Source: Apostichopus japonicus | Taxonomy: Eukaryota; Echinodermata; Holothuroidea; Aspidochirotida; Stichopodidae | Length of the DNA: 64,000 nucleotides | Direction: 5' to 3' | Assembly (NCBI RefSeq): GCF_037975245.1 | Contig: NC_092561.1 | Span: 4,576,001 to 4,640,000 of the forward strand | Part shown: piece by piece, positions 13,258-39,857 of the stretch | Layout: every line of letters begins with the position of its first letter | Position numbering within the stretch: the first letter of the stretch is position 1 | Notes under the pieces: model-generated | Databases searched by the model: none | The model's input: the letters and a program-made list of their open reading frames with translations, nothing else | What the model was told of the DNA's origin: nothing | Made by a program: the position numbers and the translations under genes

Positions 13258-16200
13258 ATGATGGACGATGAAGACTATGGGGGCAAAGATCTTACTTCAA
13301 TCTTCAAAGGTAAGAAGATGTAACGATTGATATGGCCAAGTATAGGCCTATGTAGTGATCTATAGAGAAACTTTGACATAGGCTACACATATTTACTGCG
13401 ATAAATGTTACCTATAATTGCATGGTAAGCTCGGATGATATATGTTCTGTTATCTAACTTCATCCATTATCTTAACAAAACAGATGATGGTTTTCATATA
13501 TTCGGACTGTTCCATTTAACATTTGTATGTAGTCCTAAGTGTAGACAAATATATATGTGAGAAAGCAATGTATAATGACTACGAATAGTACTGTACAAAG
13601 TCAATGTGCAACGGGAAATCACTTTCATATTCCTATAAAAGTAAGCCTAGTTGTATGCTTCGAATAGTTATTTTTAGTTAATATTGGCTATTACCATTTG
13701 TGGCTCGTACGAAAATACGTTAGTAATGTCTCCGGCATGCATGATTGCTCTTGTTTGAAACTCGTTTAGTTTAGTTCCATGTTAGGTTATTTTTAGGTTA
13801 TTATTGTTATATATATATATATATATATATATATATATATATATATATATATATATATATATATATATATATATATATATATATATATATATACATATAT
13901 ATATATATATATATATATACATATATATATATATATATATATATATATATATATATATATCCCGTTGCATTCTGTTCCATTATCGGTGGAGGGTACCAAC
14001 CATACATGTACACTGTCACTATGATATTGTCCTCAAATCGATCTGAATTTGTATGGTTGCTGTGAACCGTTTCAGATCAAGTCATACCTAAATCAGATTG
14101 ATTTGAAATTAATAAATAAGAACGCCCATGCATTACACGGTTTACTTTATCCCGTTTCCATTTTGCACATCAGGTCGCTGTGCTGACATTACCAACATAT
14201 ACATTCCTAAATGCCGGTTTTCGAGGAACGATAATGCAGCAAGTCAAGGGGTTTGTGATTCTGCTGAAAAGTCTTCGGGAGGCGATGATCGTAGGGTTAG
14301 TGTCTGCAAAGACGTAACCCGTAATAATCGAAACCGCAAAACAAAGAAATCAAAAGAAATCGACGTGGACCAGTACAAAGATGAATTGCTGGAAACATAT
14401 TTTCAATACTACAGTAACTTGTGGTCAACATCCCAAAGAGAAGTGAGTTTTTTTATTCCATTTAATATTTGAAGAATGCTTTGTCAATGGGTAATTCGGC
14501 TTCTCAGTCCAGATATAATAATTATGTGACTAAATTTGATTCTATTACTGTTAATAAGGAAAGGCAAACATAGTCTTCCAACTTTATATGTACAGTGAAT
14601 ACACGTGTATTACCCTTTAATACCGTTTTGTCCTTTGAAAAGAAATTTGCACTTTGGCCAGTCTAAAATGTTTTGATGTCGCAATTTTCTCTTAAATGGG
14701 CAAAACAGTTACCGAGTGTTGTTTATAATATCTCCATGCAATTTTTTTAAGAGCTTTGCCTGGACAATTCAATTTCTGTTGGCAGAGATGTCAATAAGCG
14801 TTAATATTTATAAAGGTTGGAGTCTTATATATTCCTGCCTAGTAGTACGGTTATCCATATATAGGCCCAGTGGCGTAGGAAGTTACTTTTGAGTGGGGGG
14901 GGGGGGGGGGCTGAAGACTGATGGCCGGCCTAGGGGAGGGGTCTAAGGGGAATTTTTTTGCATTTCCAGGTGGCCTCAGATGCAATTTGGTGCAATATAG
15001 CACACTTCAGCACCCACTCCATTTTGTAAACTTAATTTTGTATTTTCACCTGGCCTTAGATGTAATTTGGTGCTCCAAATGAGATTTTTTTTCTCATTTG
15101 GAAATGAAAAAGTTTTTTTTTGACTTGCAAAGTGGGGGGGGGGGGGCGGAATGATACTTCCGCCCCTCCACATTTTTCTCTGGGGGGCTGGCGCCCCCAG
15201 CCCCCCCCCCCCCCCGGTTCCTACGCTCTTGTATAGGCCTACGGCCAGGGGCGGATTGGGTCTTAAAATCGGCCCGGGCATATTTCACCTAGACCGGCTC
15301 ATTATTCATTGATATGTTACTTACATAGATTGCCGTCCTTGGGGAGGAGTGTAAGGGAAGGGAGACACCCCCATTGAGATTTTTTTGAAGGAATGACTAG
15401 ATGCAAAATGGTGCTATATTTCTCAATTTTGTAGGTTACAAAATCCTTTCAAAAAGGCCCAATATAATTTCCCAGAAGCAACACTTGATTAAACTGAGAA
15501 AAGTTTAAACGTTAACAAAACTTGACAAAAATTTATGTTTTGAGACTGGATTTTAGTTAGTTTTTCAAACGTTTTGTGACAACATGCTTGAAAAAAAAGA
15601 GGAAAAGGGTATATAGTCCCCTACACTTACACATAGTGTTGTCGCCCTATTCAATTAGTGTGGGGATCTAATTCGCGAAATCGGTAAAACGGGGACAAAT
15701 ACTCAAAGTCGTCGACTTTTACATTCGTTTAATTTGATAACCAAACACCCTACTGTATGAGGGTCATTTTTATTCATACATAATCTCTCAGGACTTGGCT
15801 ATTAATCTAATCTAATAAGATTTTACAATTTTTTACTTCGTTTTCTGTAGGACGAAGTGCAGATTAATAAATTCTGTGTTCTCTCCTATTGCTATGTATA
15901 TGTCAGAATGCATTGGTCACCGTACTTGTATATCTTGTCGTTAATAAAAATATATGCACTGACGGGTTGCCAATAGCATGTTCTTTTGTTACGAACTAAC
16001 AGACTAACTAACATGGTGATTTCATGAGCTGATTACCACAGTTAAGAATACATTTCTACACAGCCCGTCTGTATTCTATTAACTGCTGTGAAAATGGACT
16101 GTAATTTTTACCAGGCTCCCCAGCCGACCGGCCCACCGGGCCACCGGCCCACCGGGCATTGCCCAATTGCCCGTGTGGCCAGTCCGCCACTGCCTACGGC

Positions 16201-39000: not shown

Positions 39001-39857
39001 ATTCATTAGATGAGGTAGAAGGTACTCCTAAGCTACAGATAACATTGATGTTGTATTACGTCATGTCAAGTAACATGTTTGAGAGAATCCGACAGTTATT
39101 AGAAGATGTTTGCAATGGCTTGTCAATTAAGTTAGAGTGGGACACGATACAATATCATATGAAGGACAAAATAAAGAAGAGATTCACGGATGGTCTGACA
39201 GGTTCACAAGATGGACCAATCAGGGTGGACAATGAAACATGCGAAAATCATTCAGAGAAGACAAACCTGCCGGCAGATCTGTCCGTGCATACTACCAATG
39301 GTGGTAATAAAGGCATCTCATGTAGTCAGACCAATAATGATGATCTAGTCGGTTGTCAACAAGTAACATCGGGAATGCTTCAAGATCTCCACATTGCTGA
39401 TGATGGAAATACAGAGGTAGATAAAGCTGTGTCCTCAAGCTGTCAGAATACAGATGTCAAAAGTAAGGAAGCATCTTCCCGGACCTTACAAGTAGTCGAT
39501 CAGCGAACATTCGCCGGCTGTGAAACATCGGTTTTAATATTCCTCGACCCGTTTGAGATGCGGCATTGGTTTCGTAGAGGAGATGGAACGGGCTCAGGAT
39601 ACCACAGTCTTATCTTTACAAGATGTACAGGCCACTTCATTTTAATAACCTGGCCAAAAGACGAAGCTGGGTTGATGTGGGAGAAACATCTTGAAGAATA
39701 CAGAGAGGAGGTAAACAGAAGCGATGCCAACAAGAGCTACAAGTATGGGAGATTTCAGTACATCGCGGGTGGTCGGAAGGCACATTTTGATAGTCCAAAG
39801 ACTTGCCTCGATAAGCTCCTTGAAGATAAATGTATTCACAATGTTCAAGTTGAATAA
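33092..39857 (+). CDS. NERD-like nuclease plus SF1-like helicase/ATPase protein, copy 2
   Basis: Exons 33092-33143, 33993-34261, 36042-36123, 36418-36467 and 36924-39857 have the same lengths and phases as copy 1, again giving 1128 residues. All key motifs are kept: GEFD and EVKS (nuclease), GDYGTGKS (Walker A), FFFDEF (Walker B) and FTRCTGHF (motif VI-like). By eye about 60 residues differ over the last 943, including [12 protein letters not shown] against PSKILENVLHSL and changes within the Cys cluster, whose cysteines remain. The exon 2 donor has changed from GTGAGT to GTGATT, which could weaken splicing; reading through would end at a stop 30 bases further on. Function as for copy 1; whether this copy is fully expressed is unknown. 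Confidence 0.75.
33620..33752. repeat. (TA)n/(TG)n microsatellite
   Basis: TA and TGTG runs in intron 1 of copy 2, at the site of the long TA run in copy 1 but reorganised. Confidence 0.9.
34688..35032. mobile_element. hAT-like element A2 (copy of A1)
   Basis: Same ends and place as 14868-15231. The left 8-bp flank is TATAGGCC; the right one has one change (TAAAGGCC), acquired after duplication. Confidence 0.75.
35047..35988. mobile_element. hAT-like element B2 (copy of B1)
   Basis: Starts CAGGGGCGGACTGG and ends CCAGTCCGCCACTA, between CCTACGGC duplications. The left end here is a closer inverted match than in copy 1. Confidence 0.75.

Follow-up and report, generated by a model that had tools for sequence, protein, structure and literature searches.

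Why should a sea cucumber carry, one behind the other, two genes whose products join a nuclease-like domain to a superfamily 1 (SF1) helicase? The question is raised by a stretch of 64,000 nucleotides from the genome of Apostichopus japonicus (assembly GCF_037975245.1, contig NC_092561.1, positions 4,576,001 to 4,640,000 of the forward strand), here called the window and numbered from its first letter. We interpret the two genes as a recent tandem pair within a sea cucumber family of single-chain nuclease-helicases that has expanded and would have a defence-like role, and put the probability of this interpretation at about one half. How far do the genes themselves, their relatives in the same genome and the known systems of similar build bear it out?

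Two closely similar genes and their family

Both genes lie on the plus strand, copy 1 at 13258-20064 and copy 2 at 33092-39857, and the same strand applies to all their features given below. Their stop-to-stop frames (17107-20061 and 36900-39854) comprise 985 amino acids apiece and are 93% identical as protein. With GT-AG introns, a model of four exons results for each gene, and the predicted product is 1110 amino acids long in both; the exon models rest on the GT-AG splice sites in the sequence. Predicted exon 1 (13258..13309 in copy 1, 33092..33143 in copy 2) is similar in the two copies and in a third, which lies on contig C18 at 5.74 Mb (locus L011) and is 86% identical over the large exon. 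Predicted exon 2 (14174..14442 and 33993..34261) is 95.5% identical in copy 2 and 89% identical in the C18 copy over 89 amino acids, and predicted exon 3 (16251..16328 and 36042..36119), placed by gene model and sequence comparison, is acidic and Ser-rich; together these two exons recur in the C18 copy at 89-90%. All recognisable domains fall within the large 3' exon (17131..20064 and 36924..39857; gene model and alignment), which in copy 1 has 977 codons and a stop. The upstream exons, exon 2 included, were not found in the remote paralogues within the 3-5 kb fetched upstream; the tblastx similarities seen there, some of them in frames with stops, look like dispersed repeats. Predicted intron 1 contains a long AT-rich repeat of dinucleotide type, at about 13830-13990 and at the counterpart in copy 2, that differs between the copies.

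The preliminary description of this DNA had reported a tandem pair of animal genes. The animal is indeed one, an echinoderm, both frames are where they had been placed, and the outer bounds of 13258 and 39857 are exact; to speak of a pair understates the matter, since the family has at least 22 uninterrupted members. The length of 1128 residues once given for each copy is replaced by the 1110 of our model, 18 fewer, presumably through a different choice of splice site, neither model being transcript-checked.

How did the pair arise? Self blastn reveals a duplication of about 14 kb that encloses both genes, introns and flanks included. Unit 1 spans 8998..23351 and unit 2 24315..43172, both in plus orientation; the second holds some 4.4 kb of additional DNA (27237-31657). 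The main block pairs 12835-23351 with 32667-43172 at 93.9% identity, much more than chance could produce, and further blocks pair 8998-11894 with 24315-27236 and 11891-12839 with 31658-32601. Near duplicates in the family have introns and flanks in common, which indicates that the near copies spread by segmental duplication and not by retrotransposition.

Are the two copies maintained as genes? Base differences in the large coding frame (3.5%) are like those of its surroundings (3.6-3.7%). Insertions and deletions, by comparison, are absent from the 2,934 large-exon columns of the aligned duplication, against 38 events in the remaining 7,717, among them the columns of an intronic dinucleotide repeat; if events were uniform, this depletion would have a P of about 5e-7. 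The whole-gene ratio of nonsynonymous to synonymous differences (pN/pS) between copy 1 and copy 2 is 0.64 (P 0.027), and the same ratio lies below 1 in nine of nine paralogue pairs (0.30-0.74; one-sided P from 0.029 to 5e-8, uncorrected, over pairs that are not all independent). Because the coding exon is free of insertions and deletions and whole-gene pN/pS is below 1, we take the genes to be real. Within the window pair, pN/pS is 0.28 (P 0.003) over residues 166-400, which hold the nuclease, 0.26 (P 0.02) over residues 856-985, and 0.96 over residues 756-855.

The relatives of the pair were sought throughout the genome (671,581,487 bases, 35 contigs). With copy 1, tblastn gave 39 matches, merged into 24 loci on 10 contigs, and a search with the divergent member L033 added two loci on C18, so that the family comprises at least 26 loci, all such counts being lower bounds. 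In 22 of the 26 an open frame of at least 700 amino acids runs without a stop in the match. The remaining four are damaged: two carry stops (C13:26.18 Mb and C18:4.813 Mb), one has its frame split in two (C2:25.242 Mb) and one is a fragment with a stop (C7:16.57 Mb). Close groups of at least two loci are found on contigs C1, C2, C6, C7, C9 (in two places), C13, C15 and C18. Identity to copy 1 ranges from 20 to 93% among the 19 members of alignment A1. In a tree of 21 members, with 6 of its 18 inner branches open and its long branches flagged, the window pair and the C18 copy form one clade (100/100).

Individual members depart from the common pattern. The C18 copy has GVFD in place of GEFD in its nuclease motif and DDYGTGKS in place of GDYGTGKS in Walker A. 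L028 (contig C15, 872.5-881.5 kb) has an open frame of 819 amino acids in which the Lys of the nuclease, the Asp of Walker B and the Arg of motif VI are all lost; from its sequence it is a possible pseudoenzyme. Three divergent relatives form a cluster of their own on contig C18, at 4.806-4.820 Mb, and the match to one of them contains a stop; the cluster includes L033, which pairs a GEIDLL..MEVK nuclease motif with a classical GVPGSGKT Walker A. Besides these loci, the genome includes a contig of 16,099 bases with COX1, in which TGA has to stand for Trp, AGA/AGG stand for Ser and AAA is best taken as Asn at conserved positions (FSTNHKDIG, GGFGNWL), the code used by echinoderms and flatworms. 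Contig C29 (L010; 31 kb) also carries COX1 pieces in mitochondrial code, and is perhaps a mitochondrial or nuclear-copy assembly fragment.

Nuclease-like domain and helicase half

The large exon starts with a conserved segment of about 85 residues, marked by family-wide conserved Cys and a YRxP motif in alignments A1 and A2; in copy 1 it occupies residues 9-92 of the 985-residue open reading frame (17131..17382). At least two members are without it in the frame used. No known domain was found in the segment, and it gave no convincing Pfam match.

Next comes a putative PD-(D/E)XK nuclease core of NERD-like type, at residues 175-340 of copy 1 (17629..18126) and at 37422..37919 in copy 2, recognised by its motifs and by weak profile matches. 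The core motif of NERD reads G-E/D-x-D ... E/Q-x-K, and this pattern is present among the 21 members compared, in the order of the PD-(D/E)XK fold: Gly227 and Asp230 are found in all 21, and E/D at 228, E or Q at 244 and Lys246 each in 20. Both window copies retain GEFD (227-230 in copy 1) and EVKS (244-247). When 22 half proteins were compared with Pfam, NERD (PF08378) was the commonest family (6 of 22 at E up to 5, best 0.0011), the next families being matched by 2 of 22; the half protein of copy 1 matches it with E 0.005 over residues 210-272, across the motif. The viperin-associated NERD model of PADLOC covers about residues 215-315 of each window copy, with E values of 0.0037 (copy 1) and 0.0022 (copy 2) for the full frames and 0.0011 for the half protein of copy 1. 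In an hhalign comparison, GEFD..EVKS fell opposite the motif of a single phage NERD protein at a probability of 0.4%, which amounts to no support. A profile of the nuclease half searched against the PDB found Dcp1 alone, in two entries (E 0.28-0.29); the matched stretch precedes the catalytic motifs, and we put the match down to chance. As judged from sequence, the NERD class of the domain is supported but weak.

The rest of the protein, residues 400-985 in copy 1 (18304..20061; motifs and predicted fold) and 38097..39854 in copy 2 (alignment and motifs), is an SF1 helicase, as had been proposed: NPEQ, Walker A, the DE box and motifs III to VI are all present in order, and structural matches agree. 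The motifs first quoted occur in both copies except for one, MRVPGTFY, which is the reading of copy 1 and is MRVPGTLY in copy 2. Motif III reads W...ATHS; in UvrD-like SF1 helicases this motif usually has a Gln, which is missing in the sea cucumber family. The predicted structure has two RecA-like lobes with the UvrD fold, for which VIA-align ranks UvrD first and Foldseek ranks SLFN14 first. Sequence searches return mostly generic P-loop families. Among the 19 full members, Pfam gives AAA_22 first (8 of 19, best 1.7e-4), UvrD in 2 (best 8e-4) and SLFN-g3 in 3 (best 0.019); the matches in PHROGs and NCBIfam are weak, mostly to generic P-loop models and some to unrelated ones. Searched against the PDB, the sequence of copy 1 found nothing, and profile A1 gave five weak matches, the best to PcrA at E 0.058.

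Two further features lie within this half. Between motifs IV and V runs a conserved Cys cluster (residues 664-693 of copy 1, 19096..19185), perhaps metal-binding, in which Cys675 and Cys687 are found in 19 of 19 members of A1 and Cys685 in at least 90%; the divergent L033 differs here. A variable insert at residues 760-859 (19384..19683) is predicted to be disordered, with a predicted local distance difference test score (pLDDT) below 50.

Known systems, proposed role and alternatives

Which known systems do these proteins resemble? A NERD domain together with an SF1 helicase is best known from prokaryotic defence, where the preliminary description had spoken of prokaryotes in general; the PADLOC matches agree, and passages of PMC10952713 list NERD for Nhi-like systems. 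Nhi is presented in passages of PMC12904381 as a single-gene nuclease-helicase whose activity depends on the single-stranded DNA-binding protein (SSB) of the phage. The PADLOC models matched by most members are Nhi (9 of 19, best 9e-6) and AbiO, and NERD+UvrD and RTasNERD-Hel are also among the matches. The likeness to Nhi and NERD+UvrD lies in a nuclease placed N-terminal to an SF1 helicase in one chain, which in the sea cucumber is read from motif order with weak NERD profile support. In contrast to these prokaryotic systems, the sea cucumber genes are nuclear and multi-exon, and encode 1110 amino acids against model lengths of 470-559; their products add the conserved N-terminal segment, the Cys cluster and a long disordered insert, belong to a large family, and show weak, partial sequence matches.

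An SF1A-like helicase fold and motif order are also shared with GajB of Gabija, UvrD, Rep and PcrA, from which the sea cucumber proteins are set apart by the Cys cluster and by the nuclease-like domain fused N-terminally. HelD, unlike these proteins, has no nuclease and acts as a partner of RNA polymerase. Closer relatives did not emerge from prokaryotic and viral sequence: with profile A1 and one Walker A pattern each, 0 of 590 stretches in GTDB contigs and 0 of 394 in IMG/VR were confirmed, as were 0 of 3 in IMG/VR with the copy 1 protein. Searches by tblastn yielded nothing usable, whether against plasmids (none with L025, one record at E 7 with L014) or against phages with copy 2 (five records, best E 0.8). 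In open-licence PMC papers, including passages of a HEPN survey (PMC3710099), we found no published description of the family, and the words NERD, helicase, Schlafen and antiviral had no hits when a Holothuria genome preprint was searched for them.

What might the proteins do? A NERD-type PD-(D/E)XK nuclease would be joined to a UvrD/Schlafen-like SF1 motor, in the layout of bacterial Nhi and NERD+UvrD. The motor would load on exposed or foreign nucleic acid, hydrolyse ATP and then bring or release the nuclease for cutting. Localisation or recognition would be adjusted by the variable N-terminus together with the disordered insert, and a wide set of specificities would come from duplicated genes growing apart. 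Foreign DNA or RNA is the likelier target in view of family size, clustering, damaged copies and divergence. We infer catalytic activity, this substrate, and an antiviral or anti-transposon role. Proteins of the type proposed here, an animal NERD-like SF1 nuclease-helicase family, may already sit unnamed in databases.

A more far-reaching proposal, which we hold only tentatively, is that of an undescribed animal innate-immune family, in which echinoderm NERD-SF1 enzymes acquired from, or shared with, prokaryotic Nhi-like defence would have expanded like other animal immune receptor families and would carry out ATP-dependent cleavage of viral or transposon nucleic acid. Should the defence role be borne out, animals and bacteria would have in common a single-chain nuclease-helicase defence design outside Schlafen, RIG-I-like receptors (RLR) and Dicer, situated in a clade that has no vertebrate adaptive immunity and depends on innate families that have expanded. 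The continuity of immune parts from bacteria to animals would gain a further case. The many paralogues, some of them catalytically altered, offer a natural series for substrate choice and for sensing versus cutting.

Several observations weigh against a defence-like nuclease-helicase. At the second acidic position of the nuclease, 12 of 21 members have Gln, 8 have Glu and 1 has Lys, and nuclease activity is thus putative; Gln at this place does occur in active PD-(D/E)XK enzymes. The NERD-like nuclease that had been claimed stands by its motif pattern and the weak matches of the half proteins, but the copy 1 match scores 17.8 bits, under the gathering score of 22.1; neither full 985-residue frame matches Pfam NERD at E up to 1, NERD is absent among 25 of the 27 Pfam families listed for the 19 full members (E up to 0.1), and no match passed a curated cut-off wherever the score was given. 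Among ten members scanned with match ranges, Nhi matches three, each over some 40-50 residues at Walker A, and NERD+UvrD matches two, over 45 and about 150 residues, with no match across both domains. We do not file the family as Nhi, because the Nhi matches with known range are few and confined to Walker A. As to selection, the main helicase part (residues 401-755) is without detectable constraint in the window pair (pN/pS 0.90, P 0.46) and reaches 0.99 and 0.74 against the C18 copy, a comparison in which the nuclease constraint is not significant either (0.62 and 0.76); the whole gene is constrained, and the helicase core is not visibly so at such short distance. The N-terminus has a pN/pS of 1.87, not significantly above 1 (P 0.22), so that an arms race or positive selection is unsupported. 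Finally, a role in DNA repair fits the enzymology equally well; together with sensing by altered active sites it is the chief rival of the mechanism proposed.

Could these be nuclease-helicases of repair or replication, Dna2- or AddAB-like in action, that work on the animal's own DNA? The best-scoring folds by VIA-align include UvrD, AddAB, FBH1 and Rep, and Dna2 appears at Foldseek rank 43 with E 2e-4. Housekeeping repair enzymes are usually single-copy, however, and a set of 26 loci that includes tandem clusters and four damaged copies, with identities falling to 20-30%, has the look of a conflict gene family; we consider a repair function rather unlikely.

An improbable variant would make the proteins sensors and not cutters, altered nuclease domains binding nucleic acid and the SF1 ATPase serving as a signalling switch. 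The Gln for Glu in 12 of 21 members, the losses in L028 and the GVFD of the C18 copy would suit such a function, but GEFD...EVKS is intact in both window copies and the Pfam scans showed no signalling domain.

Are they instead a divergent branch of Schlafen, with the Slfn core missing and the helicase half kept? Group III Schlafens (SLFN11, SLFN14) are likewise animal proteins with an SF1 helicase behind a nuclease, and furnish the best Foldseek match; in SLFN11, according to passages of PMC9482658, residues 1-353 form the Slfn core, which is the nuclease, and residues 354-576 a linker domain. The sea cucumber nuclease, in contrast, is NERD-like. The Slfn core (AlbA_2) is absent among the 13 families matched by the 22 half proteins (E up to 5), a search that in the other members covered the N-terminal and nuclease half without their upstream exons; it is absent, too, from the first 180 amino acids of the copy 1 model, and the SWAVDL linker motif, sought as SW[AST]xDL, does not occur in 20 members. 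We therefore reject membership in Schlafen, a family that the preliminary description had brought up for comparison, although the motors are alike in fold all the same. A divergent branch is likewise decidedly improbable: UvrD outscores Schlafen by VIA-align, six of seven SLFN rows have a root-mean-square deviation (rmsd) of 14-15, and the Foldseek template-modelling (TM) scores are 0.22-0.28, values low for the UvrD rows too. In three of the seven SLFN rows, all with rmsd 14-15, the VIA-align alignment starts at model residues 181-183, in the nuclease region, and at chain residues 420-423, inside the SLFN11 linker; HelD rows likewise start upstream of the helicase (143-144). These start points are only a hint, taken from a predicted structure, of a bolder form of the innate-immune proposal, by which the family would keep an ancestral NERD-helicase layout that was the source of the linker and helicase half of Schlafen.

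That the protein belongs to a mobile element or an integrated virus is hardly credible: L034, a degraded member, has a reverse transcriptase fragment nearby, but in place of the many dispersed copies of a transposon-encoded protein, a case the preliminary description had allowed for, we find 26 loci, a low copy number, with multi-exon window genes, near copies duplicated together with their common introns and flanks, and purifying selection. Searches of IMG/VR and of phage records, limited in their sensitivity, confirmed no relative.

Other features of the window

Outside the duplicated segment, the minus strand has two related open reading frames, at 51233-52048 and 59346-60005, whose products combine a membrane segment and an acidic loop with a WQETANLLD(K/R)LM membrane helix at the C-terminus. 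Neither has a Pfam match over a cut-off; we take them to resemble Cys-loop receptor subunits in their M3-M4 and M4 part. Local tandem repeats occur at 4385-5275, 6326-6815, 52225-52639 and 63515-64000.

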